Positions 1 to 43,469 of a DNA stretch of 50,262 nt are shown here, piece by piece. Within the stretch, counting starts at the first letter, position 1; each line of letters opens with the position of its first letter. The translations under genes and the position numbers were made by a program. Origin of the DNA: Myxococcales bacterium (GTDB lineage Bacteria > Myxococcota > UBA727 > GCA-2721815); NCBI GenBank assembly GCA_002721815.1, contig PBLQ01000029.1, positions 1 through 50,262 of the forward strand. The letters are read 5' to 3'. Below the pieces are notes generated by a model. The model was not told the DNA's origin and searched no databases. It saw nothing but the letters and a program-made list of their open reading frames with translations.

Positions 1-3000
1 ACAACCCAAAGTACCACCCAACCCCGGTTCGCCCGGAAAACCAAAGTCGTCAAATTCACTGCCACACAACAGGGAGTTGGTACAGGTCCCACTAACGCAG
101 CAAGCCATCGACTGCAGACAGAACCCATTCATACAAGAATCACAACTCTTTTGGTCAACGTAATCGCACTTACAGTTGCCAGGCGAAGAGCAGTAACAGT
201 TCGCCTTTTTCGCCGCAGTATGCTTGTCTAAACACACCGCTTCACCATTTTGGTTGGAACAACTTGGGCTGCATACTGGGACATTGCAACGGGTGCCGCT
301 CCAACCGCTGTTACATGAACAGCTGCTCGAACCGTTACAAGACCCATTCACGCAGCTGATACCGGTCCCCCCACAACTGCCCGAACTGCATTGATCGCTG
401 TATGTGCAGTTGTTACCGTCGTTGCAGCTGGTGCCGTTCGATTTGTTGTAACAGCCACCGTTAAACCGGTTGCAACCGCCCGTTTTGCATTCGCCAGAAC
501 AGCCACAGGGCACGCAGGACCCATAACCGCTGCCCGGCGCGTACGTTCCGCCGCCGCAAGTGCTGCAACCGGAGTTACCGTAACCACTCGCGTAGTACCC
601 CGAGCCACAGGAGGAACATCCAGAGTTCCCCGTTCCGCTGGCATAAGACCCTGGAGAGCAGCTGGTACAACCGGAGTTACCATTCCCGCTGGCGTAGGAC
701 CCAGAACCGCAGTTGGAACAGCTGCTGGCGGTGGAGTTATTGTTGGGCTGATAGGTGCCTGGGCCGCATTGGTGACAAGAGGCATCAGAGGTCGTGCTTC
801 CATTGCTGCGGCGATGGCCCGCGGAGCATTTGCGCCAACTGCTACAGCCGGAGCTGCCGTATCCCGAAGCGTAGGTTCCGCTGCCACAGGTGGAACAGCT
901 GGAGTTGCCGTAACCGCTGGCATAACCCCCTGGGCTGCAATTGGTGCAACTGGTGGCCGTGGAATTGTTGTTCGGCTGGTATTTCCCTGGACTGCAATCG
1001 TGACAGGTGGCATTGGCGGTGGTGCTGCCGTTTTGCCGGTAGTGACCCGAGGAACACTTACGCCAACTGCTGCAACTGCCGGCCGTCGAATTGTTGTTGG
1101 GCTGATAAGTACCCGAGCTGCAGCCATGACACGTGGCATTGGCGGTGGCGCTGCCGTTTTTGCGGTAGTTGCCTGCGGAACAGGTACGCCAGGTGGAACA
1201 ACTCGAGTTCGCGGAGCCGCTCGAATAGGTGCCTGAACCACACGAAGAACAAGAGGTGGTCGTAGAGTTGTCATTGGGCTGATACGTTCCCGCGCCACAT
1301 CCGGTACAAGTTTTGCCGTCGCCCGTCATTTTATAGCCGGGATCGCAACTGCAAGTATAGCTGCCAACGGTGTTGTGACAATTTTGGCTACATTCATTTG
1401 AACCATTACACTCATTGATGTCACTGCATGAACCACTCCACGTGTCGTTTGCATCGTTCCAGGTAATGGAGCCAGTGTATCCCGGGTTACAGGTACAGCC
1501 CCCGCTGCCATTGGCACTGGAGTTATTCGGACACACTTTGTACGAGCAACTAACGCCATCACCGGCATAGCCGGGCTTACAAGCACAGGAGAAGCCACCA
1601 TTGGTATCGGTGCAACTTGCGCTGGGGTGGCAATTGTCTGCGCCGATGGCGCATTCGTCCACGTCCACACAACTGTTGGTGTAATTTTCACTGGAGGCGT
1701 TCCAGCCCAATGGGTTGTAAACGCTATATGCTTGAGCATCGCTGAGCTTACTGCTCCAAATCCGGACGTCGTCAAAGGTCCCCGTGAAACGGCCGCTGCC
1801 GGTAAAGCGACCACCGATTCTCACGTCTCGACCCAAATCAGGATCGTGTCCATTAGCGGTATTCTTGAGCTCGCCATCAAGGTAAATTTTACTTGATGAG
1901 CCATCGGTGGTCAAAACCACATGATGCCACGTGTTGTTCGACAACTCGTTTGATTTAACTTCTGCCCTGCCGTTAAAACAGATATTACCGTTGCTATCTG
2001 TACACTGACCTGATCTGTAGTCTTGGAGGTACCACCAGTTCCCGCCGTTCCGACCATCGAGCAGATATCGAGCACCTTCATTGGTATTCGATTTCTTAAA
2101 CCAAAGCGCGATACTCATGGCTGACGGGTTGCCCAAATCACCGGGGATTTCGATGATGTCTGAGGTGAAAGCGTAGGCCCCGCCACCCACTTTTGCGCTG
2201 GAAGTCCAGGTTGGATTGTAGGACCCACCGCTAATGCCTAAATTCGCATGGTGGCCATTGCCGGAATAATCTTTGACCCTGTACTCCTGCGTGGAGTTTT
2301 CTTGTTGATCGAACGTGAGGTGCAGCAACTCAGCCGGTGCCATCACCACTTCATAGCCACTGTTACATTGACATCCTGGCGCACCACTGGCGTTGGCTGG
2401 GCATGAGCGAGCACTACAGCTCGTACCGCTGCCCGTATAAAACTCGTCACACTTACAGGTGTAGCTGCCCACAGTATCGGTGCAGGTTGCGTTGGCGTGA
2501 CAGTTGTCGACCCCATCACGGCACTCATCGATATTGGAACAAGAACCGCTCCAAGTGTCGTTAGAGTTGTTCCAGGAAATGGACCCAGAGTAACCGGTGT
2601 TACACACGCACCCATTCCCGGACCGGCTCGAATTACTCGGACAGCTTCGGAACGTACAGCTGGTACCGCTGCCATAAAAACCGGAGTTACAGGAACACGT
2701 AAACCCACCCGTATTATTGTTACAGGTGGCATTCGCATCACAGTTATCGATGCCAGCAGAACATTCGTTCACATCTGAACAACTGCCGGAGTAAGAGCTG
2801 CCATTCCATGTCAAAGTCCCGCTAAACCCAGAGTTACAGACGCAAGGATTGCCACTGGCGTTCGAGGGACAAGACGCATTGGAGCAACTGCCAGAATAGC
2901 TCTGAGACGAGGCGTTCCAGGTAATGCTCCCCACGTACCCCCCGTTACATACGCAGTTGCCGTCGCCGCCCTTAGAAGAGTTGACCGGACATGAAACATC

Positions 3001-6000
3001 GCCGCACGAACCAGCATTGTTGCTGTAGCTAGCGGTACCGGTGGGACAAATGTTGCACAGTCTGTCAGAACTCGCGCTGCCGTTGGAGAGAACATAAGTG
3101 CCAGGGTCGCAGGTGGAGCGCGCGACGCATGCGTCCATGTTGCAGGCGGGGGTGTAGGTATCGCCACTGCAACCGCCACAGGTCCGATCGGCGGTGTTCG
3201 CCGACGTCCCGAAGAATCGGTTTTGGTTCGCGTTATAAATATCTGAGACTTCACCACTGGACAGCCGCTTGCGGTAAATCTGCATAGAAGCCAAATCGCC
3301 TTTAAAGCTTTCCGTGTATCGGTAAGTGGCAGTGCCGCCGCCAGGGCCAAACTCGGAAAAGTAAAAGTACTCGCTGGTGCCATTGTCTCCATTGTCCATG
3401 GAGCGGGAATCAAATTCTACTCCGTTGGCGTACCAGGTCGCGGTTCGGGGGCTGGACGATGTATCGAAGACCAACGTGAAGTGCATCCAGTCGTTTTGTA
3501 AGTTCCCACCGGGGATTGTGGTCGAGCCGAAAGAATACCCATTATCAAGCTTTGCTTCGGTTCTAAAATATGGTGAGCCACCACCCTCGCTTTTGAGTTC
3601 CACATGATTCACGGTGGTGTTTCCGTGAAGAATGCGTTGTCCGGAGCTCTGCGTACCGGTGACACGCATCCACCAGGAGTAACTGACGCCGTTGGTGCCG
3701 TTACGGATATCTGTGATTGCGGTATCAAACCCAGAAATATGCTGCCCAATGGGATTTCGGTCACGATCGCCATCACCAGCGAAGGAGAAATAACCGGCGG
3801 GGTTAAAGGTTGGCACACCCGCATGTCCGCTCAGCGTTACATTATCGTTACCAATGGTGTCCACCCAGCTGGTACCGCTCCCACCGTATGAAGCTGGACA
3901 GATGGCGTCCAGGTTAACGGTGAGTTGGTCAACCACCATATTGGTTCCCGATGAGCTGGTGACCTGTTGACCTGGCGCACAAACGGTCATGTTTTGACAG
4001 GAGGTCGCATTGCTTCCGCTAGAGAAGGTATCACCCGTACAGTTGGTACAAGTTCTGTTAGCGCTGGCGGACCCGGCAAAATCAATGCGCGTCCCCGCCC
4101 CACAGTTGCTCCAAGGCGTACAGGAACTTGCCGTTGAGTTACCATTGGGCTGGTATTGATTGCTTCCACAATCGTGACACGTTGCATCAGCGGTGGCGGA
4201 GCCGTTTTGTCGATATTTACCAGCGGGACATGTACGCCAAGTTTGACACCCAGAAGAACCGAGTCCAGTACCAAACCATCCTGAGTTACAGGTGCAGTTA
4301 TAACCGCCAACAGTGTTGCTACAGGATGCGTTGCTGTTACAGGTATCGGTACCTAACGAACACTCATTGACGTCCGAACAGGAGCCGGTCCAGTTTTTGG
4401 TGTTGCTGTCCCACCCGATGCTGCCAGAATAGCCTGTGTTACACACACAACTGTCGCCGACCCTGGTCGAGTTCGCTGGGCAGGCCCGCTGCGAACAGGT
4501 GACACCATTGCCATGATACCCAGTGTTGCAATCACACCCGAAATCGCCCACGGTGTTTTGACAGGTTGCATTGGCATTACAATTGTCTGTACCAGCGCTA
4601 CATTCGTCGATGTCCGCGCACGCACCTGGCTTGCCGATTTTTAGATTGAAAAACTGATGATAGCCATAGGTTTCACTGCCGTATGGAGATGAATCACTTC
4701 TTCGATTGGTGAATGTGTCTGGAGATGAACCGTTGTACTTATACCTAAACTCCGGGCCGCATCCGTCACACGGGTATCCATACACCAAGTCGGCAATCAG
4801 AAACGATAATGACCCATCGCCATCATAAGTGAATGGTGTATCCAGAGCGATTTCAAACCAGCCGCTTTGATTGAAAACCACGTCCCCCTCAAAAACCAAG
4901 GTATGCCCGCTGATCAGGGCCGCTTCGTTGCTGTGAGAGCCTGGCGGTACAGTGGCACTACCAACATCAGCCAAATAGATTTTTAGCCCGTCGTAGTTGT
5001 AAATGCTGGTACTGGCGACATCGAGCCAAATACTGGAAATGGTGGTGGGTGTGTCGGGCAGCATAGAATCGGGATAATAGGTTTTGGACCAACTGTAGTG
5101 GTAGAAATCCATAAGAAGGTAATCGCTTTTAGATGTTCCTGCGGTGGCCACATCGACTGGCTCAGTAGACGCTTCGTAACCACTGTCGCAATCGCAAGAG
5201 TAGCCATTCAGCGCGTCCACACACGTACCCGCCCCACAATCAACACCGATACAATCGTCAATGTCACTGCAGCCGGTTCCCCCTGTTTTGCCGTCACCTT
5301 CGTAACCCGTGTTACAAGTACAGTTAAAACCGCCGGTGGTGTTCGAGCAAGTGGCGTTTCCGTCACAATCATGGCCCGAGCCTTCACCGGCACATTCGTT
5401 TTGATCATCGCAAGAAGATCCGTTGCCATTCAGGCTGAACCCACTGTTGCAGGAACAATAAAAACCACCTGCCGTGTTGTGGCAGTTTTGCGCACAGCCA
5501 CCATTGCCCGTGCTGCATTCGTTGACGTCACTGCAGGTGTGTTGCCACGACTGCGTGCTGGAATTCCAACTTGGCGTGCCGTTGTAGCCGCTCTTACACG
5601 TACATGAGGGCCAATTCTCTGCGTTGGCCGGACAGGCTTCTACAGAACAACCAGACCCCGCGGGATAACCATCTCCGCTGTAACCCGTGGGGCATGCGCA
5701 AGTGAACAAAGTATTGTTCGGATCGGCCTTGGGGTTAACGTCGGTGCATATCGCATTCGCTGAACAAGCGTTCGATGGGAGGGTTTCGGTGATGAGGATG
5801 TTATCGACCGTGGCACCCACGTCGTTGTCGTCGGTTCTTCTAAACCTCAGAGAATAGGTTTCGCCCGCTGCATTACCGCCACTGAGCGTGACACTCTGGT
5901 TGTAGGTGGTGTTGGGATCCGGTGATGCGCTTCCTGCATGCGTGATCAAATTGACAGCGATGGCACCGTCGGTCTCGTTGTACAGATCAACGTAAAAATC

Positions 6001-9000
6001 ATCGCTGCTACTGCTGTAGTTCCAGAACCGGTAATCGAATTTGATCTGCAGAGTTGTGGAAGCGGGCGTGAACGAATCGGTGACCAAAGTGTGGTCTTCA
6101 TATCCACAGTAGGAATACCGGCTATCGGCCCAGACGCCGCTGCAATTAGAGCATCTAGCGTCCCAGGAGCTATGAGAAGAATCTCTCAGTGTCCAGGCCG
6201 TGCAGGTACTGCTCCCGTTGTTGATCTGCCACAAGTCTGAAGAAGAAGCGGATGGCACCGTGCCCGTGGTCCAACTCTCAAAATTCTGTGAGACCAACGA
6301 CACCAGGTTTCCGGTACATTCATCAATATTTTGGCAAGACCCTGCAATCTCTTGGGTGCCTGGAATACAGCCGCAAACGTAATCGCCTTGGGTATCGGTA
6401 CAGTCTTTGCCGCCCGAACAGGGATTCGTGGGTGAGCATTCGTTGATGTTGCTGTCACAATCCTTGCCGGACCAACCGGCATTGCCAACTTGGTTTAGAT
6501 TACAGGTACAGGTGTAATCTAAAATACCATCGGTGCAGGTCCCGTTCGCACAAGGGTCTGGGGAGCACTCGTCGATGTTGTAACAGTTTTGCGACCCACC
6601 CGCGGAAGCGAAACCCGTGGGGCAATCTGTACAGCTGGTACTGTCAGCGGTGTTTCCGGCCACCGGCTGATAGGTATTGGGTGGGCAATTCGAACAGACA
6701 TAATCGGCGGTGGTACTGCTGCCATCATTCGAAACATACTGCCCGTAACCACAGGGTGTTTTTGCTTGGCAATTGCCTGAATACCCGGTTCCGAAATACC
6801 CGCTGTTACAGGCGCAATTGAAAGAGGGCGACGTATCTGTACAGGTGGCATTGCCATCACAGGTATGAGAGCCCTGGGTACACTCGTTAATATTTTGACA
6901 GTTACCACCGTTACAATCAAACCCCCCGCCTTGGCACTCATAACCGGAGTTACAGGTACAAATATACCGACTGCCGTCCAGATTTGGATCTTTGTTAACG
7001 CAAGAAGAATAAGAAACATCATCGCAGGTGTGTAGCGAAGCATTGGCGCATTCGTTGATGTTGGTACACCCTGCAGTGGGGGAACCTTCATAGCCAGGCT
7101 GGCAAGCGCATGAGAAACTGCCTTGGCTGTTGGTACAGTTGGTGTTGGAGCCGCAGTTATGGGTACCTATGCTACATTCGTTGATATCGGTGCATCCAGA
7201 CACAGGATCACCCTCGAAGCCGGGCTTACACTCACAGTAAAAGGACCCCGAAGTATTCACACAGTTGGTATTGTCGCCACAGTTATGCCCACCATTCTCG
7301 CCGTTGCACTCGTTGAGGTCTTGACAGCTACTGCCCTCGCAATCGCTGTTACCTGATGCGCACGAAAAACCAGATGCACAGGTACAGGTGTGCTCGTCAT
7401 AATTTTGCGTCGCCGGATCGAAAGCCACATTGGCGCAGGCTGAGTTGCTCGGACAGTTTGCTACACCGTTGTTGCAAGCATTGTTGCCATAGCAGGAAAA
7501 GGAACATTCGCCACCGATACAATGAGCCACATCGACCCCCAATGCGGCATCACAATCGTCATTGCTGCTGCAGCTCACCTGAGACGAGCCCGTGCAATCC
7601 ACCGAAATCACGCAAGTGGGTGCGTCTGGATCGCTCCACGTGAGGGTTTGGCCACAGTTGCCGACCGAGCATACCTCTGCTTTTGTTGGAGGTTGGGTAT
7701 CCCCAGGCTGGTTACAGGTAATGAGGTCGCAAGTGGAACCAGCCAAGGTCAAGCTATCGCCGTAGGTACAAGCATTACAGTCGTCTTGGGTTAAGCATGT
7801 ATAACAAGCCGGGCATGTAACTGTGGTGCCACACCCATCATCTAAAGTATTCTCGCAGGTCGCCACAGTGCATGTGATGTCTTGTTCATCACAATCGCAA
7901 TTGGAGGTGTCGATCGTGCTGCAGCTGCTATCACACCCCAAAGTACTGGCGCTGGTGTTCAGCCAGGAGGTTTGCGTATTACAAGATTCAATGCCGAAAT
8001 CGCTCCCGTCACAAACTTCGCCATCATCGAGCACTCCGTTCCCGCAACAGCCGTCTGTATGATCGATCTGCTGGAACAAAGAACAGCCACTGCTGCATTT
8101 CCACTCCACACGGGGACATGCATTGCCTTGACCGGCGGCAGGCGGTGGTACGTCCATGTGAACGTCGCAAACCTCGGCACCCGCTTTAATGTTATCACCA
8201 CAGGAGGTGTAACAGGCTTGCCCCGGGGTGTCGCAGTACCAACCGCTCTCAATGCTCAAGCAGTTAGAGGTGCAACCATCGCCGTTGGCGGCGTTGCCAT
8301 CATCACAAACCTCTGCACCCGCTTTAACGCCATCGCCGCACTGGGTGGTACAGGCGGATGGTTCTCCGGTACAGTAGTACCCAGACTCAGGAGCACAAGT
8401 GGCCGAACAGCCATCCCCATTGGTGGTGTTACCGTCATCGCAGCTTTCAGTGCCGGCCACATAGCCATCTCCACAGGTCGTGCTGCAAGTGGATGGCGCA
8501 CCTGAACAATACCAGCCTGATTCGATACTGCAGGAAGCACAGCCATCCCCAGAGCTTGAGTTTCCATCATCACAGGCTTCGCCACCAGGCCAAACATTCC
8601 CATCGCCACAAGTGTTGTTGGTGCAATCGGTTAAGCAACTGGCCGATGCGCCGTTAGCGCCAGAGCCCAAATCACACTCTTCAGTACCGGTGGTCAGCGC
8701 ATCCCCGCAGTAGCCACAAACATTGTTCGTGGTTGGGTATCCGTTGGAGCATGACGCGCAATCAGAAGCACAATTAGGGTCGCTGGCGGTATCACAAGAC
8801 TCGCCATCGGTCACTTCGTCATCACCGCAGAAACGACAGGTAGTGCCATTACTGGGCGAGGAAGCGACGGAATACTGCCGGCCCTCATCTTCACATTGGC
8901 AAGTGGCGTTACAGTACGTATGAATGGTATGGTCGCATTCTTCACCCAATCCATTCTGCAGAAGATTATCCCCACAGTAACCTCCGGTGGTTCCACTCAC

Positions 9001-12000
9001 CACATTACAGGTACCGGTTTGGCAAAAAGAACAAGTGGCGTCTGCCAACGTTAAGCCACCGGGGCAGGTGTAACTTGGGACAAATGGGTAGCCGCTGTTG
9101 CTGTCACACTGTTCCCCTGTGTCTTGGACCCCATCGCCGCATGAGGGCAGCAAGCAGTTAGTTCGACACGCATCCACAGCAGTGTTGCTGTTCGCCACTG
9201 AGCCATTATCGCATTCTTCGCCTTCTGCGCCCTGGGTAACGCTGTCACCACAGTAGTTGAGAACGCAGCCCGCAGTCTCACAACCAGCCTTGCAGTTTCC
9301 GTTATTACAATAGGTTTGTCCCCGCGTCATGTATTCGGTATCGTTATTGCCGTCATCACAAACCTCGGCGCCAGCCACGATTGAGTCGCCGCATTGAGTC
9401 ACACATGTGGAAGGCGCTGCGCCTGAGCAATACCAACCAGACTCCACTTCACATGTTGCCGAACAGCCATCTCCAGAGGTGGTGTTCCCATCGTCGCAGA
9501 TCTGACAACCAGCTGCGCCTGAGGCACAACCATCGGTGGTATCTACCGTTCCGTCTCCACAAGCGGAGGCCTTACAGTTGTTTCTACAGGCATCGTTGTT
9601 GACCGTGTTTTGATCGTCACAATCTTCGTGAGGACTGTCGGTAACACCGTCGCCACAGTAATTCGGTGTGCCCTGCCCAACCTGACAATCATCCATACAA
9701 TAAGTACAGGCAGAGTCTTGCTGCGTGAAGGCCCATGCACATTCCGAAGAAGTGGGCGGATCGCACGCTTCAGCTGCCACCGCATGATTGTCACCACAAG
9801 CGGCCGCCACGCAAGGTGCACCGGGCGTGGGACAAGACCAACAGGGAACCACAGGACTACTGCCACAAGTCTCGGTAACGCATGAACTGGAACACCCATC
9901 ACCGCCAGTGGTGTTGCCATCATCACAAGTCTCTTCGGGGTCCACAACACCATCACCGCATCGGGTACACGCACCACCCGTGGCGTTGCGACAGTTGCCA
10001 ATCCCCCCCGCAGTGAGATCGCAAGTTTCTCCGGAATCAATCACCCCATCACCACAAAAGGCACTTTTACAATTGGTTCGACAACCGTCGACTTGGGTGT
10101 TGCTGTTGGCAACGCCGTTGTCACACTCCTCGGTGCCGGCGCCCGTGTTGTACACTTTACCGTCGCCGCAGGTCGCGGTTTTGCAATCAGCTAAGCAGAG
10201 GGCGTTGTTGGAGTTATCTTCCCCATTATCGCATTCTTCGCCGCCAGCGGTATCCAGTACATCGTCGCCACAAACGGAGGTGAGGCCAGGCCCATTCTGG
10301 CAGGTGCTGTTACAGACCGTACAAGAGGATTCACCGTAAGCGCACGATTCAGTGACCGCATTACCATCGTCGCACTGCTCATAATCGGACTGGATGTTTC
10401 CATCGCCACAATATTGAACGGTGCCGGAAATGGAATCACAGGACTCGGGGTCACAGACCGTGCAAGCAGAGGTGGAGTTGTATATACAGAGCACCGTATT
10501 ATCTGCGCCATCATCGCAGGTCTCGTAAGTGATGCCTGGACAAGTGCTATGCCCAGCGGTGATCCCATCGCCGCATGATTCCGCGCAACAGGGCGATCCA
10601 GCCGTGCTGCAAACCCATCCAGCATCGATGGCAGAGCAATCAGCAGCGCACCCATCCGCTCCAGCTTGGTTGCCGTCATCACAAGCCTCGCCACCCACGA
10701 TGAGCCCATCACCACAAACTTCGGTACAAGTTCCGCTTACACAATTCCATCCTGTGTCGGCGATACAATCTGATGTACACCCCTGAGTGGTGGGCTCACA
10801 GGTTTCGTGGTGGGTCACGAGTCCATCACCACAGGTACGAACAGTACCGGCCACCGTTTTACAAGATGTACAGACCGAACAGCTGGTGTTGTGCTGCGGG
10901 CAGACTTTATTCGTATCGTCAGGGTCACACTCTTCTTTTGCATCTTCAGCGCAGGAAGGATTACCTGCCGCCACAGCGCCATCGCCACAGAGCGCCGCAC
11001 AGCAAGGCTGCCCGGGTGTGGCGCACTCCCAACCGGTTTCGAGCTGACACTGGTTGCTGCAACCATCGCCGGCAATGGTGTTTCCATCGTCGCAAGTTTC
11101 ACCGGAATCGATCACACTGTCACCGCAGCCTGCAAGCGTACAATCGGTGCGGCAGCGATTCATGATGGTATCGCTGTTGTTCGCACCCTGGTCGCATTCT
11201 TCCACCGAGTCCACGATATAATCGCCGCAAAAGTGAGGCTGCCCAGGGGTGAGGGTACAGTTACAACAGACGTCACCGCATAGCGCATCGGCCGCCGATG
11301 TGGCCATGCTGTCATATGGGCAACCACAGGTGTTGTTTAAACCCTCATCGCAGTTTTCACCGGTGATGATGATGCTGTCGCCGCAGCCGCCAGAGTTACA
11401 GCTCGATGGTACGGTGCCGGTACAAATCCATCCCTCATCCACACCACTGCAATCGCCTTTGCAGCCATCGCCGTCGATGTTGTTGCCATCATCACAGGCC
11501 TCAAATTGGAGGTTACCAGTGTGGGCAGAGGCAACTTGCTCTGGGGTCAGTTCTTTTTTATACAGTTCGAGTTGATCGAGGCCGCCTTCATAAAAACTGC
11601 TCGTCCCCGCGCGGGCACCAATGAAGAGGCTCTCGCTGGTGTCGGTGGGATTAAAGGTCCCCACGCGCTCGTAGTTGAATTGTCCATTGAGATACCCTTT
11701 TAACTTACCGCTGCCATCGTAAGTGATGGTTACGTGGCTCCAGGTGTCAGCCGGAACATCGTACACCAGCCCGCCTTGGATACCGGAGTCCTGATTCATG
11801 AACACCACAGAGTTGCTGCTAGTCAGGTATACGGACACCATGCCATTGTTCACATCTTGGCCTTTTTCAAAGATGGATTGGTTGCCGCTGCGAGCGGCAG
11901 GTCGAATCCAAAACATGATGGTGAAAGGGCCATCGTCAAAACTGACGGAGGGGCTGTCGGCAATCTCAAGGTAATCATTACTGCCGTCAAAGTGGTAAAA

Positions 12001-15000
12001 GGTATTACGAGAGCTGGTATTGCCGGTGTCGTTTGCAGTTTCAAAGACCAACTCGTTGAGCCAAGAGCCACCACCGGGGGTGTTGGTTAAATAGATGCGC
12101 CAATAACGTTTTGCGCCTACGGAATTCCAAGAAACAGAATGCCACCCCGCCCCGTTGGGGTTCAAAGTCCCCAATGTGGTGTAACTGGCACCATCGTCTG
12201 AATATTCGAACTGCCACGTGCCGGCATAACTTGTGACGGCATGGATTTTACCTTTCACGTAGGCTCTCTCGTTACCGGCCCCCAAGTCCACAGCCAAGTA
12301 GGCGCCAGGACCAGCGCTGTCGGTGTGCCACCCATGGGTGCCAGTATTGTTATCCACAATAGCTGACGCAACATAAGCGCTTAATCCGCTCTGTGAGAGC
12401 ATGTTCGAATTGATACGATCTTGGGTGGCGAGAGATGCCCCCTGCCAAGCGTAGTTGCACCCATTACATTTCACTTCCGCATGATTCATCAAATAAGTGG
12501 AATCCAACGTTCGGCCCGAAAGTTCGGTGTTCATGGGCAGTACCATGGAGACCAGTGAATCCACCACACCATCACCACAGCTGGGGTTCACACAAGTGGT
12601 GCGGCATGCGTCAGCCGTACTATTACTGTTGTCAACTCCGTTATCGCATTGCTCGTCAGAAGATTGCAGGACGTTGTCACCGCAGTAAATTCGAGTACAG
12701 GGGACATTGGTGCAACTTGGGCCACAAGTGTTCGTCGGGGCCTGGTCGTAAGCACAATCCTCTAAGTCTGTGTTACCATCATCGCAAGCTTCTACGCCCG
12801 CTGCAGTTTCACCGTCACCACAAACAGTCACACAAGTTCCACTAGAACAATTGTAACCGGTCTCTTCTTGGCAAGCCGTTGTAGGCACGCCGTTCACGAC
12901 CTCATTACCGGAACACCCGTCCCCGGAGATGGTATTGCCATCATCACAAGCTTCGCCGTTGTCCACAACGCCATCACCACAGGCCGGATTGTTGCAGGAA
13001 GTTCTACAGGCATCTGGTGTGGTATCGCTGTTATTCCCACCATTGTCGCACTCTTCGTCGGAAGACTGATGTACACCGTCACCGCAATATCGGGTTGGAC
13101 TGGTTTGGGTTTGGCAGTTACAACACACATTACAAGCGAGTTCGGATTGTGACCAAGGGCAGTCACAGGTATTTGCGGTGCCATTGTCGCATTGCTCTCC
13201 AGTTTTGACTTGATTATCGCCACAAATCGGCGAGCAAACCAAACCGTTGGGGCATTCCCAACCGGTTTCCACTGCACAGGTCGCGGAACACCCATCGCCG
13301 CTGGTGGTATTGCTGTCATCGCAGTCTTCATTGGCATCTTTGGTGCCATCACCACAAACCTCTAAGGTACAATTAGAGCGGCAACCATCACCATCTGCGG
13401 TATTACCATCATCACAAGCTTCGTGCCCAGACTGTAAAACGCCATCGCCACAGGTGATGGGGATACCAGGACCTTCCACGCAAGTTGCAGTACACACCAC
13501 ACAGGAAGTAAGCCCGTAGCTGCAATTGTTCGTGATACTGTCACCATCATCGCATTGTTCGGTATGCTTAACTTGACCGTCGCCGCAAATTGGCGTGCAA
13601 TTCACCTGATCGGGACATTGGCAATACGCCTCAACCACGCAAAATTCGGAACAACAATCGCCATTGGTTTTGTTACCATCGTCGCACTGTTCTCCTGCAT
13701 CCACCACGCCATTGCCACAATCTAAGGAGGGACAAATGGCCTCCCCGATATTACTTTCGTAAACCAAATCGCCGAACAACGGGTCGGCTGCCACTTGGAT
13801 TTTGTACTGGGTGTTGCCCGGGAGATCGGGCATATTCTCGATGGAGAAATCGAACTGAACCACACATTGTTCGCTGGTATCTTGTCCTTTAGCGATTAAG
13901 GTGGGATTTAAAACTTGAGCCCCGCTGGGACCTTGAAGCTCCGGTGCATCGAAGAGGGCATCCAATGCGAAATAACGAATCGACTCACCTCCAAATGATG
14001 TTTGAAGCTCGACTTTATCAGCATAAGAGGACATGTCGGGCACAAACAAGCGCGCGCGCGCCTTGGGGTATTCGACACCGTCTCGATATTTCACGAATTC
14101 GTCCGGTGTCGAGAAAGCCTTCTCGCCCGGACTGAGGCTTGCGTAATAAAGGGACATGGGCGTGGTCTGGAAGTTCCAGAACACATGTACCTTTCCCGTG
14201 CTGTCCACCGTAACCGCCGGGTGACTGCGATCGAGATCCGTTCCATCATTGTTGAGACGGGTATCGAGCCAAACCCCGGAATCGTTAACAACGTTTCTTG
14301 GTTCGCTGATGGGATCGACCCAACTTTGGGTGTTGGCATTGTACCGGTGATAAACAATTCGATTGCTGCCAAAATCCCAATTGGAATACCACTCCGAAAC
14401 GAGGTGAATAAAGTTGCCATTCGGCCCCCAAGAAGCCGCTTTGTACGCATCATAGCGACCGTGGCCATTGTTGGTGCCCACTACGGGATACGCCCCTGAC
14501 ATGTCGTTATTTTGGCGAATCGTGGCTTTCGTGCTGGTTTTACCCCGCCACACGTAAGAACAACCGGCGCAATAATTGTTTTTGTTGCCTCCCCAATCGT
14601 CTGGCAATGAGTCTCTGTTCTCAGAATCGAAGATGGCATTCACCACTTCATCGTGACCGCCAGATTCGAGCAAGAAGGCCTTCAATGCTTCGCCTTGGTT
14701 CCATTGGGGTGCAATCAACCAAACCTGATCTACATCTAAAGAAGAAACCGAAGGCGGACGTACGAGCAACTCGGTCCCCTTGTAACTCTCCGGCTCGTCG
14801 ATGTAATAGATGTCGTTCGCGGGGCCATACTCATAAAAGCACGCGGCACCCGAGCAACCATCGGCAGGATGGCTGATCTTTGCGAATCGGTTGTGACGGT
14901 TCGCCCAGCCATCTTCGACCCACGAAAGATAAATCGACCCTTGGCTGCCTGCAGCCATCGAAAAATAGTGCTGGTATCGGTTACCGGGCTTGGTCGCGTC

Positions 15001-16485
15001 TCCTGTTCGTCCGTGGTAAACGCTGGTGTCCTCTGTCCCCACCAACAAACCGTGCGTGCTCCAGGGGTTTTTAAAGAAGCGCGAGTTGTACTCATCCCAA
15101 TTTCGGGAATCTTCACCATCTTCACCGTGAACCACACAGGCGTCACGCAGCGCGGTGTCCGCATCGTCCCAATCCCCACGATACTTCCAACATTGCTTTT
15201 CTGAAGAACCGTAATAGGCTAAATGCCCCCAGCCTTGATATTCATATCCGTGGCCGTTTACCGTGCGTGCTTCACTTTCACCAGCGTTCAGTCCAGTGAT
15301 GAACCCGTAATCTTGCCAAACCGCGTGTAATCGGTCTTGGCTGTCAATGACGATGGACGGTGCCCAATAGCGGGTTACCACCCGGTTACTGCCATTGTCT
15401 TCCCGCTTGGGCCAAATGGGACGCACGTCTTTCCAGCTCACCCCGTTGTCATCGGAGTAAGTGTGGAGAACTTGGTACCAGCCGCCGAAAGTTCCGTAAA
15501 AAGCCAAGTGAAGGTTGCCTTCGGAGTCACGCAGAATATTCTTTTCGTTGGTGGTGTTGGCTGACACAAAGCCTTGGCCGAACACGACGGAGGGGTCGAT
15601 GCTGATTCGGCCAGAGCTGTAGCGCACCCACTCATTGGGTAATTTGGTGGTCACCAACAAGCCCTCAGGGACCCACTCAAAATGCCGGGCCAGCACTTTC
15701 TCGGCATCGGATTCATCGTAGGCCACAGCCTTAGGCAATTTAAAAACATCTCGTCGTACCGTCAGCTCTACATCTCCAGTGTGGCTGAACTCAGATTCGG
15801 GCGTTAGCGTCTTGCCGTTCGCATCGAGCGTGCCCCATCGGTCGGGCCCATGGCCAAAAGGCACCACCAACGCCCCACCTTGGGTTGAAAGTCCGGGGAG
15901 CAATGTTTGTAGCCACAGATCACTGTCTTCACGCATGATGCGTGATTTGAGATCATCGGACAGATGGAAGAACTCTTCCACATCAGCCCCATCGAAGCGG
16001 TATTCTAAATCGACATCTTCGACATACGAAGGGAAAACGACCTTACCCATCTTGGGCTCATTCTTTAAGAGAGGCGTGCTGGGCTTCCTGGCCAGGCTCC
16101 CCACTTCGTTTCCACCCTTCACTAGTTTGGCCGAAACGAAATTTTGGGAAATCTCTTCTCTGCCCTTGGTCGCCCTAAATTTGAGCGCACCGTTCGAAGA
16201 CACCGTTACATGGCCCGCTTTAAATCCCGCTTTGTCAGGGTAAAACTCAGGGGCGACCTCAGGGAGTGATTTGCCCGGATTGTGCACTTCAACCCCTGGG
16301 GTTTGGGCACCACTGATGAGGGGCTCGCTGAGGAGATCTGCCACGTGGATCTCTTTTTTAACGCCCGTATCCTCGGACTCCATAGGCTCTGGAGTTGACA
16401 AGGAGCCAAAAAGTAAGATCGAAACTGCGGCTGCGAACAAGCAAGAAGCGTTTATTTTCCAAGCACTTGAGTGAACCAAGGGCAA
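1..16485 (-). CDS. Giant secreted mosaic protein (BNR, DUF4215, F5/8C, LamG, EGF and ephrin/TNFR-like modules), 3' end off the left edge
   Basis: Reading the minus strand in one frame from 16485 to base 1, I found no stop codon, giving at least 5,494 residues. No in-frame ATG precedes the hydrophobic leader. I chose TTG 16485 because AAGGA lies 8 nt upstream; TTG 16479 and TTG 16512 are alternatives. A leader with the core LFAAAVSILLFGSL follows. Approximate modules: 150-910 BNR/sialidase-like repeats (Asp-box SDDNGVSW near 345); 915-1312 DUF4215 repeats (CDDGN...GDGC); 1316-1469 F5/8 type C-like; 1476-1652 LamG; 1656-2936 more DUF4215 repeats; 2940-3395 EGF; 3396-3566 beta-sandwich; 3567-3772 EGF; 3774-3949 beta-sandwich; 3950-4180 EGF then TNFR-like; 4181-4416 LamG; 4417-4713 Cys-rich/EGF; 4714-4929 LamG; 4930-5060 EGF; 5061-5336 ephrin-receptor/GCC2-like repeats; then EGF-like to the edge. 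A role in adhesion, prey contact or matrix is inferred. The anchor is not visible because the C-terminus is missing. Confidence 0.9.
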   Translation of the reverse strand, partial: MPLVHSSAWKINASCLFAAAVSILLFGSLSTPEPMESEDTGVKKEIHVADLLSEPLISGAQTPGVEVHNPGKSLPEVAPEFYPDKAGFKAGHVTVSSNGALKFRATKGREEISQNFVSAKLVKGGNEVGSLARKPSTPLLKNEPKMGKVVFPSYVEDVDLEYRFDGADVEEFFHLSDDLKSRIMREDSDLWLQTLLPGLSTQGGALVVPFGHGPDRWGTLDANGKTLTPESEFSHTGDVELTVRRDVFKLPKAVAYDESDAEKVLARHFEWVPEGLLVTTKLPNEWVRYSSGRISIDPSVVFGQGFVSANTTNEKNILRDSEGNLHLAFYGTFGGWYQVLHTYSDDNGVSWKDVRPIWPKREDNGSNRVVTRYWAPSIVIDSQDRLHAVWQDYGFITGLNAGESEARTVNGHGYEYQGWGHLAYYGSSEKQCWKYRGDWDDADTALRDACVVHGEDGEDSRNWDEYNSRFFKNPWSTHGLLVGTEDTSVYHGRTGDATKPGNRYQHYFSMAAGSQGSIYLSWVEDGWANRHNRFAKISHPADGCSGAACFYEYGPANDIYYIDEPESYKGTELLVRPPSVSSLDVDQVWLIAPQWNQGEALKAFLLESGGHDEVVNAIFDSENRDSLPDDWGGNKNNYCAGCSYVWRGKTSTKATIRQNNDMSGAYPVVGTNNGHGRYDAYKAASWGPNGNFIHLVSEWYSNWDFGSNRIVYHRYNANTQSWVDPISEPRNVVNDSGVWLDTRLNNDGTDLDRSHPAVTVDSTGKVHVFWNFQTTPMSLYYASLSPGEKAFSTPDEFVKYRDGVEYPKARARLFVPDMSSYADKVELQTSFGGESIRYFALDALFDAPELQGPSGAQVLNPTLIAKGQDTSEQCVVQFDFSIENMPDLPGNTQYKIQVAADPLFGDLVYESNIGEAICPSLDCGNGVVDAGEQCDDGNKTNGDCCSEFCVVEAYCQCPDQVNCTPICGDGQVKHTEQCDDGDSITNNCSYGLTSCVVCTATCVEGPGIPITCGDGVLQSGHEACDDGNTADGDGCRSNCTLEVCGDGTKDANEDCDDSNTTSGDGCSATCAVETGWECPNGLVCSPICGDNQVKTGEQCDNGTANTCDCPWSQSELACNVCCNCQTQTSPTRYCGDGVHQSSDEECDNGGNNSDTTPDACRTSCNNPACGDGVVDNGEACDDGNTISGDGCSGNEVVNGVPTTACQEETGYNCSSGTCVTVCGDGETAAGVEACDDGNTDLEDCAYDQAPTNTCGPSCTNVPCTRIYCGDNVLQSSDEQCDNGVDNSNSTADACRTTCVNPSCGDGVVDSLVSMVLPMNTELSGRTLDSTYLMNHAEVKCNGCNYAWQGASLATQDRINSNMLSQSGLSAYVASAIVDNNTGTHGWHTDSAGPGAYLAVDLGAGNERAYVKGKIHAVTSYAGTWQFEYSDDGASYTTLGTLNPNGAGWHSVSWNSVGAKRYWRIYLTNTPGGGSWLNELVFETANDTGNTSSRNTFYHFDGSNDYLEIADSPSVSFDDGPFTIMFWIRPAARSGNQSIFEKGQDVNNGMVSVYLTSSNSVVFMNQDSGIQGGLVYDVPADTWSHVTITYDGSGKLKGYLNGQFNYERVGTFNPTDTSESLFIGARAGTSSFYEGGLDQLELYKKELTPEQVASAHTGNLQFEACDDGNNIDGDGCKGDCSGVDEGWICTGTVPSSCNSGGCGDSIIITGENCDEGLNNTCGCPYDSMATSAADALCGDVCCNCTLTPGQPHFCGDYIVDSVEECDQGANNSDTIMNRCRTDCTLAGCGDSVIDSGETCDDGNTIAGDGCSNQCQLETGWECATPGQPCCAALCGDGAVAAGNPSCAEDAKEECDPDDTNKVCPQHNTSCSVCTSCKTVAGTVRTCGDGLVTHHETCEPTTQGCTSDCIADTGWNCVSGTCTEVCGDGLIVGGEACDDGNQAGADGCAADCSAIDAGWVCSTAGSPCCAESCGDGITAGHSTCPGITYETCDDGADNTVLCIYNSTSACTVCDPESCDSISGTVQYCGDGNIQSDYEQCDDGNAVTESCAYGESSCTVCNSTCQNGPGLTSVCGDDVLDTAGGEECDNGEDNSNNALCLADCKTATCGDGKVYNTGAGTEECDNGVANSNTQVDGCRTNCKSAFCGDGVIDSGETCDLTAGGIGNCRNATGGACTRCGDGVVDPEETCDDGNTTGGDGCSSSCVTETCGSSPVVPCWSCPTPGAPCVAAACGDNHAVAAEACDPPTSSECAWAFTQQDSACTYCMDDCQVGQGTPNYCGDGVTDSPHEDCDDQNTVNNDACRNNCKASACGDGTVDTTDGCASGAAGCQICDDGNTTSGDGCSATCEVESGWYCSGAAPSTCVTQCGDSIVAGAEVCDDGNNDTEYMTRGQTYCNNGNCKAGCETAGCVLNYCGDSVTQGAEGEECDNGSVANSNTAVDACRTNCLLPSCGDGVQDTGEQCDSNSGYPFVPSYTCPGGLTLADATCSFCQTGTCNVVSGTTGGYCGDNLLQNGLGEECDHTIHTYCNATCQCEDEGRQYSVASSPSNGTTCRFCGDDEVTDGESCDTASDPNCASDCASCSNGYPTTNNVCGYCGDALTTGTEECDLGSGANGASASCLTDCTNNTCGDGNVWPGGEACDDGNSSSGDGCASCSIESGWYCSGAPSTCSTTCGDGYVAGTESCDDGNTTNGDGCSATCAPESGYYCTGEPSACTTQCGDGVKAGAEVCDDGNAANGDGCTSNCLSIESGWYCDTPGQACYTSCGDNIKAGAEVCDVHMDVPPPAAGQGNACPRVEWKCSSGCSLFQQIDHTDGCCGNGVLDDGEVCDGSDFGIESCNTQTSWLNTSASTLGCDSSCSTIDTSNCDCDEQDITCTVATCENTLDDGCGTTVTCPACYTCLTQDDCNACTYGDSLTLAGSTCDLITCNQPGDTQPPTKAEVCSVGNCGQTLTWSDPDAPTCVISVDCTGSSQVSCSSNDDCDAALGVDVAHCIGGECSFSCYGNNACNNGVANCPSNSACANVAFDPATQNYDEHTCTCASGFSCASGNSDCEGSSCQDLNECNGENGGHNCGDNTNCVNTSGSFYCECKPGFEGDPVSGCTDINECSIGTHNCGSNTNCTNSQGSFSCACQPGYEGSPTAGCTNINECANASLHTCDDVSYSSCVNKDPNLDGSRYICTCNSGYECQGGGFDCNGGNCQNINECTQGSHTCDGNATCTDTSPSFNCACNSGYFGTGYSGNCQAKTPCGYGQYVSNDGSSTTADYVCSNCPPNTYQPVAGNTADSTSCTDCPTGFASAGGSQNCYNIDECSPDPCANGTCTDGILDYTCTCNLNQVGNAGWSGKDCDSNINECSPTNPCSGGKDCTDTQGDYVCGCIPGTQEIAGSCQNIDECTGNLVSLVSQNFESWTTGTVPSASSSDLWQINNGSSTCTAWTLRDSSHSSWDARCSNCSGVWADSRYSYCGYEDHTLVTDSFTPASTTLQIKFDYRFWNYSSSSDDFYVDLYNETDGAIAVNLITHAGSASPDPNTTYNQSVTLSGGNAAGETYSLRFRRTDDNDVGATVDNILITETLPSNACSANAICTDVNPKADPNNTLFTCACPTGYSGDGYPAGSGCSVEACPANAENWPSCTCKSGYNGTPSWNSSTQSWQHTCSDVNECSTGNGGCAQNCHNTAGGFYCSCNSGFSLNGNGSSCDDQNECAGEGSGHDCDGNATCSNTTGGFNCTCNTGYEGDGKTGGTGCSDIDDCIGVDCGAGTCVDALNGYSCDCDSGYEASTEPVDVATAGTSKSDYLLMDFYHYSWSKTYYPDSMLPDTPTTISSIWLDVASTSIYNYDGLKIYLADVGSATVPPGSHSNEAALISGHTLVFEGDVVFNQSGWFEIALDTPFTYDGDGSLSFLIADLVYGYPCDGCGPEFRYKYNGSSPDTFTNRRSDSSPYGSETYGYHQFFNLKIGKPGACADIDECSAGTDNCNANATCQNTVGDFGCDCNTGYHGNGVTCSQRACPANSTRVGDSCVCNTGYSGSIGWDSNTKNWTGSCSDVNECSLGTDTCNSNASCSNTVGGYNCTCNSGWFGTGLGSSGCQTWRTCPAGKYRQNGSATADATCHDCGSNQYQPNGNSTASSCTPWSNCGAGTRIDFAGSASANRTCTNCTGDTFSSGSNATSCQNMTVCAPGQQVTSSSGTNMVVDQLTVNLDAICPASYGGSGTSWVDTIGNDNVTLSGHAGVPTFNPAGYFSFAGDGDRDRNPIGQHISGFDTAITDIRNGTNGVSYSWWMRVTGTQSSGQRILHGNTTVNHVELKSEGGGSPYFRTEAKLDNGYSFGSTTIPGGNLQNDWMHFTLVFDTSSSPRTATWYANGVEFDSRSMDNGDNGTSEYFYFSEFGPGGGTATYRYTESFKGDLASMQIYRKRLSSGEVSDIYNANQNRFFGTSANTADRTCGGCSGDTYTPACNMDACVARSTCDPGTYVLSNGSASSDRLCNICPTGTASYSNNAGSCGDVSCPVNSSKGGDGNCVCNGGYVGSITWNASSQSYSGSCSNASCPSNASGNPCVCNSGFSGTLTWNGSSYSGSCSDVNECSAGIDNCDANATCNNNTGGFTCSCNSGFYGSGTSCTFRSCPSNSSRSGNGCVCNTGYSGSISWNNSNDTWSGSCSNIDECRDGVDNCHANATCTDTVGSYTCKCDEFYTGSGTSCSARSCPANASGAPGCQCNSGYEVVMAPAELLHLTFDQQENSTQEYRVKDYSGNGHHANLGISGGSYNPTWTSSAKVGGGAYAFTSDIIEIPGDLGNPSAMSIALWFKKSNTNEGARYLLDGRNGGNWWYLQDYRSGQCTDSNGNICFNGRAEVKSNELSNNTWHHVVLTTDGSSSKIYLDGELKNTANGHDPDLGRDVRIGGRFTGSGRFTGTFDDVRIWSSKLSDAQAYSVYNPLGWNASSENYTNSCVDVDECAIGADNCHPSASCTDTNGGFSCACKPGYAGDGVSCSYKVCPNNSSANGSGGCTCNPGYTGSITWNDANDTWSGSCSDINECNGSNECSQNCHNTVGSYTCSCDPGYKMTGDGKTCTGCGAGTYQPNDNSTTTSCSSCGSGTYSSGSANSSCSTWRTCSAGNYRKNGSATANATCHGCSSGTYQPNNNSTAGSCSSWRKCSSGHYRQNGSTTANATCHDCSPGKYQPNNNSTATSCTNCSPGGYASGYGNSSCSTCGSGTYASGYGSSGCSSWRKCSAGHRRSNGSTTSDASCHQCGPGTYQPNNNSTASSCSNCGSGSYASGNGNSGCTSCSPGSYASGTGNSGCSSCGSGYYASGYGNSGCSTCGGGTYAPGSGYGSCVPCGCSGECKTGGCNRFNGGCYNKSNGTSCNDGNNCTYSDQCSSGSCGGTGISCVNGSCNGSSSCSCNSGWSGTRCNVPVCSPSCSNQNGEAVCLDKHTAAKKANCYCSSPGNCKCDYVDQKSCDSCMNGFCLQSMACCVSGTCTNSLLCGSEFDDFGFPGEPGLGGTLGC

Positions 16486-24076: not shown

Positions 24077-24319
24077 TTAAACCAAAACCTTGGCGGGCTC
24101 TTTGGTTTTGGGGTGACTCTCGAAACAGGCTCGGCTCGCATTACAACCATCAGGACACGCTAATTGATCGTCAGGACCCGACGGCCAAGCGGTGTGCAAA
24201 CACGAAAAAGACACGTCACCGGACGCCATGGCATTGATCACATGTAAAGGGCTTTCCACATCTCGGTGGTAGCCTTTCCAACGTAAATAACGGCACCAGT
24301 TATCTGGAGTTCGTTTCAT
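24077..24319 (-). CDS. Small cysteine-containing protein coupled to the molybdenum hydroxylase genes
   Basis: This 80-residue protein has five Cys (9, 40, 55, 59, 65), three of them in ACPDGCNASRACF. I do not recognise the family. Its ATG overlaps the stop of the FAD-subunit gene (ATGA), which supports it being real and co-translated. Cys spacing of 4 and 6 could bind a metal or an Fe-S cluster; this is inference. A role as an assembly or electron-transfer accessory of the hydroxylase is plausible from position only. Confidence 0.6.
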   Translation of the reverse strand: MKRTPDNWCRYLRWKGYHRDVESPLHVINAMASGDVSFSCLHTAWPSGPDDQLACPDGCNASRACFESHPKTKEPAKVLV

Positions 24320-25281
24320 GTAACCACCTCTGCAAATGCAGCCAACAAAGAGCGAACCAAAGCCTCACGCCGGTATTCCTGGCCAGGCAAAGGGTTTAAT
24401 TTGGGCAAGTGTTTCACCACAAAGTCACGATCATGCAGAACAGTCCACGGCTGTCCCATCGCATTCGTTTCGATTTGGCCGAGACGCAAGGGCCGTCGTC
24501 CAACCGCTCCCACACCCAGACGCAGCCATTGAATGGTTCCCCCAGAAACTTGGGCGTTGATGGCCACTTCTATTTCGGCCCACTCGGCCATTTTTCGGGA
24601 TGACAAGCGAAAATAATGTTGGGTGTTGCCTTGCTTTTGTTGGTCGAGGTGAAGGGTGGCGATCAACGCTCCCGCGGGCAATGCATTGTTTTGCTGTTTG
24701 ATATCAACATCAAAATCAAAAAACTGCGCCATAGACCACATGTGAGTTTCAACGCCAGTGGGTTGAAAAATTTGTACCTGCATTCGAGCTTCCAGTGCCA
24801 GTAACGCCAAACCCAAGGTGGATGCATGTAGCGCTGCGCAGGTTTTGTTATCGATAATGGCATAAGGAAATCCTTCATCACCTTGAGCGCGGCAAGCGGC
24901 ATCACCGGAAGATGAACAGGCGTCTTCTCCATGACCCAGATGCGGACATCGCGATGATTGGCACAATGCGCCACCCACCGTGGCTTGAGACCGAGTTTGA
25001 GGGTTGGCCGTATGTTGGCACGCCGACACCAAGAGTGGAAATGCTTTTTTTAACTCGCCGTGCCTCGCCAGAACAGACAAAGGGACCGAGGCCCCAATAT
25101 GAGCAGCCCCTTGTACCCATTTTATGTTGTTGAGGTCTTCACAACGAGACAAGTCGAACCATGGCTGTTCGTTCCCGTGTAACATGGTTTCAGTGGCCCC
25201 ACCCACCCAAATCCCTGCAGGTTGCTTGGTTTTGGCATCACCGGCTGCGGGCAATGTTTCTATAAACGTGACCTTGCCCAT
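24316..25281 (-). CDS. FAD-binding subunit of a molybdenum hydroxylase (CoxM/PaoB-like)
   Basis: This 321-residue protein is the flavin subunit of a xanthine-dehydrogenase-family enzyme. It passes electrons from the Fe-S clusters of the molybdenum subunit to an acceptor. The FAD domain (about 1-210) shows GGATETMLHG, the ISASVPLS-like segment AHIGASVPLSVLA, and NPQTRSQATVGGALC. The C-terminal CoxM-type domain follows. Residues 107-130 hold four Cys (107, 112, 122, 130) in the place where PaoB and the 4-hydroxybenzoyl-CoA reductase beta subunit carry an extra [4Fe-4S] cluster. There is no signal peptide, so if the enzyme is periplasmic this subunit must be co-exported with the Tat partner. It starts 3 nt after the stop of the large subunit. 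Confidence 0.88.
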   Translation of the reverse strand: MGKVTFIETLPAAGDAKTKQPAGIWVGGATETMLHGNEQPWFDLSRCEDLNNIKWVQGAAHIGASVPLSVLARHGELKKAFPLLVSACQHTANPQTRSQATVGGALCQSSRCPHLGHGEDACSSSGDAACRAQGDEGFPYAIIDNKTCAALHASTLGLALLALEARMQVQIFQPTGVETHMWSMAQFFDFDVDIKQQNNALPAGALIATLHLDQQKQGNTQHYFRLSSRKMAEWAEIEVAINAQVSGGTIQWLRLGVGAVGRRPLRLGQIETNAMGQPWTVLHDRDFVVKHLPKLNPLPGQEYRREALVRSLLAAFAEVVT

Positions 25282-25284
25282 GGG

Positions 25285-27999: not shown

Positions 28000-28137
28000 A
28001 ATTCTTCCCTTTGGAAACATTTAACACCAAACCCTTTTAAGCCCCCAATTATTCCTTGTTTTTTTTATTGTTGCCGGACGTCATTCCCCCATGAATTTTT
28101 TTATTTTTTTGGTATAAAACTGCCTCAAGGAGCACTC

Positions 28138-41834: not shown

Positions 41835-43460
41835 CTAGCTCCCCGCGAAAAACGGAAAAGCGAGGTCTTCGAATTCGGGCGTAAAATCTGATGAAAGCTC
41901 ATAGGCGACGGCCAACGGGTGGTCTGAAATTCCCAATATCTTGCGTACCGCATGATGTATGTGAGCCGGGGTGAGATTAAAGCCATTGTCTAAGTCGTAA
42001 CTGTTGGTAATGCTGCCGTCGTTTTGAACGAGTATGTTGCCCGCGTAAACGTATTTGGGCGTTTTCAATACACCTTCGGGATGAATATCGCTGATATAAC
42101 TGTAACCAAAAGATTTGCCAGGCCCAATGCCGGTATTTTCACCGCCCATGAGCATGGTGGAGGTGACGGGTGCGTGATCTTTGCCCCTGGAGTCGCCATT
42201 CAAGCGGGTACGGCCGAAATCAGAAGCCATCATGATGATACTTCGATCCCAAATCCCGGCCGCTTCTAGAGCCTGTCTGACATAATGGGTCAAACGAAAC
42301 AGTCTTTGAAGGTTATCACAGTGATTCGAGGCTGATGAATTGCTGTTTTCATAATGATTGGAATGCGAGTCAAAATCTCCTGCGCCAAGAAAAGCACTTT
42401 TACATATCCCAGCTTTCATGGCAGCGACGAGTATCCGAGCCTGCTCTAATTCTGCTGAGTCATCGTAAGGCGCTAAGATCATCTCTAACGAATCCGCTAA
42501 AGGCTTAAAGTCTGGTTCTGCCAGCTGCGCTTTTTCCAAACGTTCAAGATTGTCTTTGACGTGGGGGGGCAATCCGCTGGCCATGAGGCGCGCAGCTTTA
42601 TCTTGTTCGTAATTTTTCATGCGATCAACAAACAGGCTAGCCACAATGGGAGATGTGTCCCCCGTAGACGCCGACTTCACATAGACATCGGTTAAATTCA
42701 TTAAGGCGTCTGAATTACCGGCTCTTGTGATGCTCACGAGGTCTGAGGTAAATTCGTAGCCCGTTGAATTACTTCCAAAGGTCATCGGGAAGGGTTTGGG
42801 GTAAGTTCCATCACCATTTTCTAACTCTTTGATGGCCCCCCAAAGGGCTGCAATATTGGGTGCTCCCACACGAATGCGGCCGCTCCATGCTTGGCGTTGG
42901 CCGACGGGGTGGGCATTACTTTTGGTATTCACGCCATTGAAAACATGTAAGTCGTTTCTGTAATACTCGAAAAAGTCGATATCCCCGGAAGGCCCGACCT
43001 GATAGGGCCCGATGCACGCTTTGCTTGTGTTGGTAAACGGTGCCACCTTAAAGCTATTGCTCCCGTTGTCATCCACGTGGTCGCGCGTGTAGGTTTTGAC
43101 ATCATAGGGCTGATCAGACTCTGTATCCTGGTGCCAAACAAAACGACCTTCTTGCGTGTTCCCTTCAATGTCACCGCCCATGCCAGCATTGATATCCAGT
43201 GGATTATAGGTATTCGGGGTTCCTTCCGATAAATAAGAATTGAACTTATTCATGGCATCGTATCCACGATAAAATCCGCGTTTGGTGATGGGGTCACAAA
43301 ATGAAGTGGGATCCCAAGCGCGCGGTGCATTGATGCAAAACAAAAGAATATCATCGGTATCCTCCGCATGGACACCACGACTTTTAAGGAGGGTAAGCGC
43401 CCCCGATGAGAGCATCAAAGAAGACAAAATGGCTTTTTTCATAAAATCACGTCGGTCCAT
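41835..43460 (-). CDS. DUF1501-family protein with Tat leader
   Basis: This 541-residue protein has a twin-arginine leader (MDRRDFMKKAILSSLMLSSG). The DUF1501 core resembles the alkaline-phosphatase/sulfatase fold: an early LLFCINAPRAWDP, then FLGAGDFDSHSNHYEN, and the late DFGRTRLNGDSRGKDH, whose Asp/His residues are in the family's metal-binding positions. Its biochemical role is unknown. In planctomycetes and myxobacteria, DUF1501 genes sit next to genes for CxxCH cytochrome-like proteins, as here. GGAGG lies 6 nt before the ATG and overlaps the stop of the upstream 1,724-residue partner, which indicates one operon. Confidence 0.87.
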   Translation of the reverse strand: MDRRDFMKKAILSSLMLSSGALTLLKSRGVHAEDTDDILLFCINAPRAWDPTSFCDPITKRGFYRGYDAMNKFNSYLSEGTPNTYNPLDINAGMGGDIEGNTQEGRFVWHQDTESDQPYDVKTYTRDHVDDNGSNSFKVAPFTNTSKACIGPYQVGPSGDIDFFEYYRNDLHVFNGVNTKSNAHPVGQRQAWSGRIRVGAPNIAALWGAIKELENGDGTYPKPFPMTFGSNSTGYEFTSDLVSITRAGNSDALMNLTDVYVKSASTGDTSPIVASLFVDRMKNYEQDKAARLMASGLPPHVKDNLERLEKAQLAEPDFKPLADSLEMILAPYDDSAELEQARILVAAMKAGICKSAFLGAGDFDSHSNHYENSNSSASNHCDNLQRLFRLTHYVRQALEAAGIWDRSIIMMASDFGRTRLNGDSRGKDHAPVTSTMLMGGENTGIGPGKSFGYSYISDIHPEGVLKTPKYVYAGNILVQNDGSITNSYDLDNGFNLTPAHIHHAVRKILGISDHPLAVAYELSSDFTPEFEDLAFPFFAGS

Positions 43461-43469
43461 GTCTTCCTC

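Follow-up and report, generated by a model that had tools for sequence, protein, structure and literature searches.

The window, i.e., the whole stretch of DNA analysed here, is 50,262 nt long and constitutes an entire contig (C29). On its minus strand the ORF listing gives a single ORF from 16512 to 1, 5504 aa in length and open at the contig edge. The frame is free of stops from 16533 down to base 1 (0 stops in 5511 codons). The giant ORF and the parts of its product are the following:

1..16485, minus strand: giant ORF of at least 5,495 codons, counted from TTG 16485; the frame is open from 16533 and the contig end truncates the C-terminus
16390..16479, minus strand: KINASCLFAAAVSILLFGSLS-TPEP, probably a signal peptide of type I, read from the sequence and without a lipobox
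15613..16260, minus strand: N-terminal beta domain (residues ~85-300), motif DLEYRxDGxDVEEFFH, common to proteins of same-order lake genomes
13858..15600, minus strand: putative sialidase/PHL-lectin-like beta-propeller with BNR/Asp-box (residues ~305-885), low-confidence model
7723..13719, minus strand: DUF4215/TIGR02232 (myxo_disulf_rpt) array, at least 27 modules (residues ~932-2930), interrupted once, by insert A
11506..12555, minus strand: insert A, F5/8C + Laminin_G_3, splitting a DUF4215 module between CGDGVVDS and EACDDGN
1306..7320, minus strand: calcium-binding EGF modules (cbEGFs), 14 of them intact and 2 split, together with CPxNxS-CxCNxGY and TNFR-like modules; inserts B-E fall in this part (residues ~3065-5069)
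5773..6306, minus strand: insert B, 178-aa beta domain with a weak choice-of-anchor J match (E 0.004), in the Cys1-Cys2 loop of a cbEGF
4627..5166, minus strand: insert C, 180-aa domain with no family match, in the Cys5-Cys6 loop of a cbEGF
3211..3948, minus strand: insert D, Laminin_G_3, apparently within a TNFR/ephrin-like repeat
1708..2349, minus strand: insert E, Laminin_G_3, within a CPANS-CxCNxGY module
514..1314, minus strand: TNFR/ephrin-receptor-like repeats (residues ~5067-5333)
1..513, minus strand: Cys-rich tail reaching the contig edge and ending ...FPGEPGLGGTLGC

Elsewhere in the window, a large lipoprotein (1724 aa, weak DUF1588 match) adjoins a 541-aa protein with a Tat-like N-terminus (41835-48644, minus strand), and a two-gene molybdenum hydroxylase is composed of an FAD subunit and a fused Tat-[2Fe-2S]-MoCoBD subunit (24316-28020, minus strand).

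The original prediction of a giant protein of at least 5,494 residues, made from a stop-free 16.5 kb, was borne out, and TTG 16485 is the very coordinate it gave. Such a length without a stop cannot have arisen by chance. The likeliest start candidates are TTG 16485 and TTG 16479, adjoining the Shine-Dalgarno-like GAAGGATAAAGGG; there is no in-frame ATG upstream of the hydrophobic stretch. Since the window is a whole contig and the frame runs off its end, the protein is truncated and its C-terminus is missing. The expected continuation leftward into another contig was not recovered, as none of the 148 contig ends compared overlaps the left end of C29. Possible continuations are the Cys-rich open ends at the right of C12 (302 aa) and at the left of C17 (322 aa, with a MYXO-CTERM).

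Could the frame have been produced by the assembly, through fusion of genes or collapse or expansion of repeats? The 4.6-Mb genome is 98% complete but fragmented, with 74 contigs and 2.6% contamination, and a sibling gene seems to have been broken in this way: the left ends of C42 and C18 look like halves of one EGF-rich lipoprotein, interrupted in near-identical EGF repeats. Against this stands, first of all, the frame itself, in which no stop occurs and the modules split by inserts resume in frame beyond them. The regularity of this nesting, described below, also argues against misassembly. Codon-position base composition follows the amino acid content along the ORF with no frame break, and recognisable modules extend from near the N-terminus through the final residues. 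The region contains a single tandem DNA repeat (126 bp x 2). Furthermore, the scale is supported by at least six other giant frames of 3,400-4,900 codons in the same genome: 4916 (C28), 4469 (C21), 4314 (C35), 4118 (C2), 3814 (C33, open) and 3452 (C10) codons. An artefact is thus unlikely, to the point that we give it very little weight, and we take the giant ORF to be real sequence. The original picture has to be amended here, the ORF being one of at least seven giants in the genome, and the others have different module mixes.

Several sibling frames have features of their own. The 4916-aa giant (C28:13108-27855, minus strand) has EGF units, TPR/ZU5 and a lengthy N-terminal part with no match, and its C-terminal stretch matches Vitellogenin_N (7.5e-8) and HEAT_2. 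The cadherin/Ig-like frame at the left end of C26 (2407 codons) and the matching 1173-codon remainder at the left end of C21, which has a MYXO-CTERM-like tail, are possibly one gene of approximately 3,580 codons.

The mature protein would begin with two domains found together elsewhere. The N-terminal beta domain and the BNR/Asp-box region recur as a pair in two genomes of the same order, which together have four such ORFs (22-27% identity). These genomes are on record as Deltaproteobacteria and Myxococcales MAGs, and their isolate names suggest a lake origin. A first scan of named genomes for relatives gave none, and a second returned only these lake MAGs; the head together with this stalk in one protein was not seen in the other genomes examined. 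The BNR assignment is a weak one, at E 0.003, and is backed by fold comparison. The AlphaFold model of the head has a mean pLDDT of 47, with confident strands in the first domain, and its best PDB matches in Foldseek are the NanC/NanB sialidases and the PHL/PLL lectins (E 1e-6 to 1e-7). The Asp-box reads SDDNGVSW.

LamG and F5/8C domains frequently accompany sialidase-like glycoside hydrolases, and the giant protein carries both. Together with the Foldseek matches of the head to GH33 sialidases and ulvan lyases, this would suit a secreted enzyme of that kind, with many carbohydrate-binding accessory modules, digesting prey or algal polysaccharide. Yet in an alignment of five members the propeller part shows no Arg, Tyr or Glu that is invariant, the model being too poor to place residues; no GH family match was obtained at E<=1; and the domains that follow the related heads are Ig/Fn3-like and not enzymatic. 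We therefore regard a hydrolase as improbable. As no conservation of catalytic residues is apparent in the relatives, a lectin is favoured, and the propeller is probably a distal, non-catalytic carbohydrate-binding head.

The stalk starts near residue 930. Its DUF4215 modules are recognised by Pfam in 14 stretches (4e-80, 264 bits against a cut-off of 27) and by NCBIfam as TIGR02232 in 16 stretches (5e-121, 394 bits against a curated cut-off of 20.8). EGF_CA matches 11 stretches (Pfam; 5e-51, 171 bits against 27), and all 13 EGF units that fit a strict pattern have the complete Ca2+ consensus of the animal type, [DN]x[DN]EC...Cx[DN]x4[FY]xCxC, including the residue position beta-hydroxylated in eukaryotes. 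In addition, there is a four-Cys module related to EGF (CPxNxS...CxCNxGY...W...GSC), one F5/8C match (1.6e-6) and three Laminin_G_3 matches (5e-24 for one, 3e-29 for two). The module list given beforehand thus stands for DUF4215, F5/8C, three LamG and EGF, and less firmly for the BNR; the TNFR_c6 (22.1 against 29.4 bits, 2e-4) and Ephrin_rec_like (19.7 against 23.1 bits, 8e-4) matches fall below the Pfam cut-offs.

In the PDB the EGF units match the cbEGFs of CD97, NELL2, Notch and fibrillin (5e-30 down to 2e-7). To this extent the description of the modules as eukaryote-like is apt, and metazoan matches at E 5e-30 are what eukaryote DNA, through contamination or recent transfer, would give. 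Such an origin is nevertheless highly improbable: the genes around it on the contig are bacterial, as is the DUF4215/TIGR02232 repeat, the base composition of the giant ORF is like that of its contig, and introns are absent. The bacterial origin assumed from the outset is therefore upheld. EGF modules are moreover common in the phylum, with EGF_CA in 85 of 195 genomes and in none of 14 control genomes, so that recent acquisition from a eukaryote is not required. Genome size and surface repertoire differ sharply within the order: eight genomes of one family (f5), only 0.3-1.8 Mb in size, are without EGF_CA and mostly without DUF4215.

Cysteine accounts for 8.4% of the residues, and such a content implies that folding is oxidative and takes place outside the cytoplasm. 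The C-terminal TNFR/ephrin-like stretch matches the ephrin-like repeats of Mst1, a mastigoneme protein of Chlamydomonas, at 1.4e-12. This match, the fibrillin-like tandems of cbEGFs and the cysteine content would also fit a structural component of a matrix or filament, mastigoneme- or fibrillin-like, that is neither receptor nor adhesin. We consider this rather unlikely, though somewhat less so than an enzyme, as its large head and its several domains of lectin type point to binding, and sibling giants with different modules do not form a single polymer system.

Beyond the propeller, beta domains are inserted as five units, three with LamG (one of them also with F5/8C) and two others. None of the five sits between two complete modules and all lie within a Cys module. 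Hence the modules are those proposed originally, but the lectin-like domains are nested in them and not strung in simple order. Nesting is clear in two of the five cases and supported in the remainder, and the splitting of a TNFR-like repeat by insert D is the least certain. In the two clearest, A in a DUF4215 repeat and E in an EGF-like module, the halves of the host are complementary. The left half of the DUF4215 host of A covers model positions 1-8 (residues 1312-1319) and the right half 10-27 (residues 1671-1688); rejoined, they reach 34.2 bits in Pfam, above the cut-off, compared to 18.1 for the right half alone and no match for the left. The halves of the four-Cys host of E cover positions 1-19 and 23-36, and the LamG of E shares 40% identity with two LamG in the C21 giant.

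Similar arrangements occur among the siblings. In a 1836-aa lipoprotein on C46 (8755-14262 of its contig piece), located in a run of neighbouring Cys-rich lipoproteins, two LamG are nested in DUF4215 repeats, at the same loop as in the host of insert A. In C21 and C26, as judged by eye, an Ig-like domain seems to be interrupted by LamG, but Pfam does not recognise this host. There are also counter-examples: in the C33 giant the kelch region sits between modules, C26 begins with a free LamG, and in the readable relatives LamG and fibro-slime-like domains are not nested. None of 192 further genomes of the phylum gave a full-length nested match to E, A or C46-2. Rejoining the halves raises the Pfam score clearly for A alone; for B and C46-2 the gain is slight or nil. 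When jitter-optimised random deletions were made as a control, 8, 56, 45, 26 and 17 of 400 scored equally well for A to E, respectively, so single cases are only modestly unusual, repeats being easy to rejoin. The case for nesting rests on the complementary halves and not on these odds. Direct repeats at the insert borders, a sign of mobile cassettes, did not exceed chance, and a Toxin_R_bind_N match in insert A, under the cut-off, is explained by the ConA-type fold that the two have in common.

Tentatively, this lineage may build its giants by plugging lectin-type cassettes, LamG above all, into loops of repeat modules. The scaffolds would be several unrelated ones (DUF4215, EGF, TNFR-like and perhaps Ig-like), and the process, equally conjectural, would diversify surface receptors in a way different from ordinary end-to-end domain shuffling. 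The nesting suggests a rule by which binding domains are added without disturbing the disulfide stalk.

On balance, we cautiously favour a secreted giant adhesin, displayed on the surface and held by a C-terminal anchor; a surface rod binding glycans or cells is our best reading of the data. The signal peptide would direct the chain through Sec, and the many cysteines would form disulfides during folding in the periplasm. Lipobox-like starts are present in many sibling proteins of the genome, unlike in the giant ORF. Export would follow folding, probably by type II secretion, and the genome encodes a type II secretin (478 bits); passage of a folded chain of 5,500 residues through it counts against this route. 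An anchor beyond the contig end, plausibly a MYXO-CTERM, would retain the protein at the outer membrane. About 19 MYXO-CTERM tails in the genome are above cut-off, and an MrtX-like CPBP protease gives a partial match (8e-27, model positions 118-235) below the family cut-off. The DUF4215 and Ca2+-EGF arrays would make a long stalk, partly stiffened by Ca2+, from which F5/8C, LamG and the other beta domains would loop out as extra ligand sites along its length. If this holds, a 4.6-Mb genome devotes approximately 90 kb to giant, mostly adhesion-type proteins, several of them made of modules best known from the animal extracellular matrix.

No description of such a protein was found in the literature, and the giant ORF has to be compared with several partial counterparts. 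The predicted propeller fold and the Asp-box are shared with GH33 sialidases and PHL/PLL propeller lectins, from which the head differs, at about 10% identity and in a low-confidence model, by catalytic residues that appear not to be conserved. The complete Ca2+-binding consensus and the tandem arrangement are those of fibrillin, CD97, NELL2 and Notch, but the giant protein is bacterial, has DUF4215 mixed in and beta domains inserted in some EGFs, and bears an unrelated head. Its length, 5,495-5,511 codons in one incomplete frame, is within the class of huge bacterial surface proteins of at least 5000 aa (PMC11573180). With these, and with giant1-5 of Apilactobacillus kunkeei, which are beta-solenoid proteins (PMC12863079), it has in common the size class, the presumed surface role and the occurrence of several per genome; no disulfide and EGF modules bearing nested lectin domains are described there.

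TraA of Myxococcus xanthus consists of a lectin-like PA14 head, a rigid, Cys-rich TIGR04201 stalk and a MYXO-CTERM (PMC3325183); MrtX sorts it, and its export is presumed to be by the T2SS (PMC11980579). A lectin-like N-terminal head, a Cys-rich repeat stalk, a type I signal peptide, a link to Ca2+ and the phylum itself are common to both. Since the giant ORF has no Pfam match to PA14 and none to TIGR04201, NCBIfam matching TIGR02232 instead, it falls outside the TraA type; it also differs by its EGF, LamG and F5/8C modules. The giant ORF is about 8 times as long as TraA. By analogy, the protein may work like TraA, the closest working model, without being TraA itself. Giant modular surface proteins are thus a known kind, to which this one adds a domain order and a nesting that look new.
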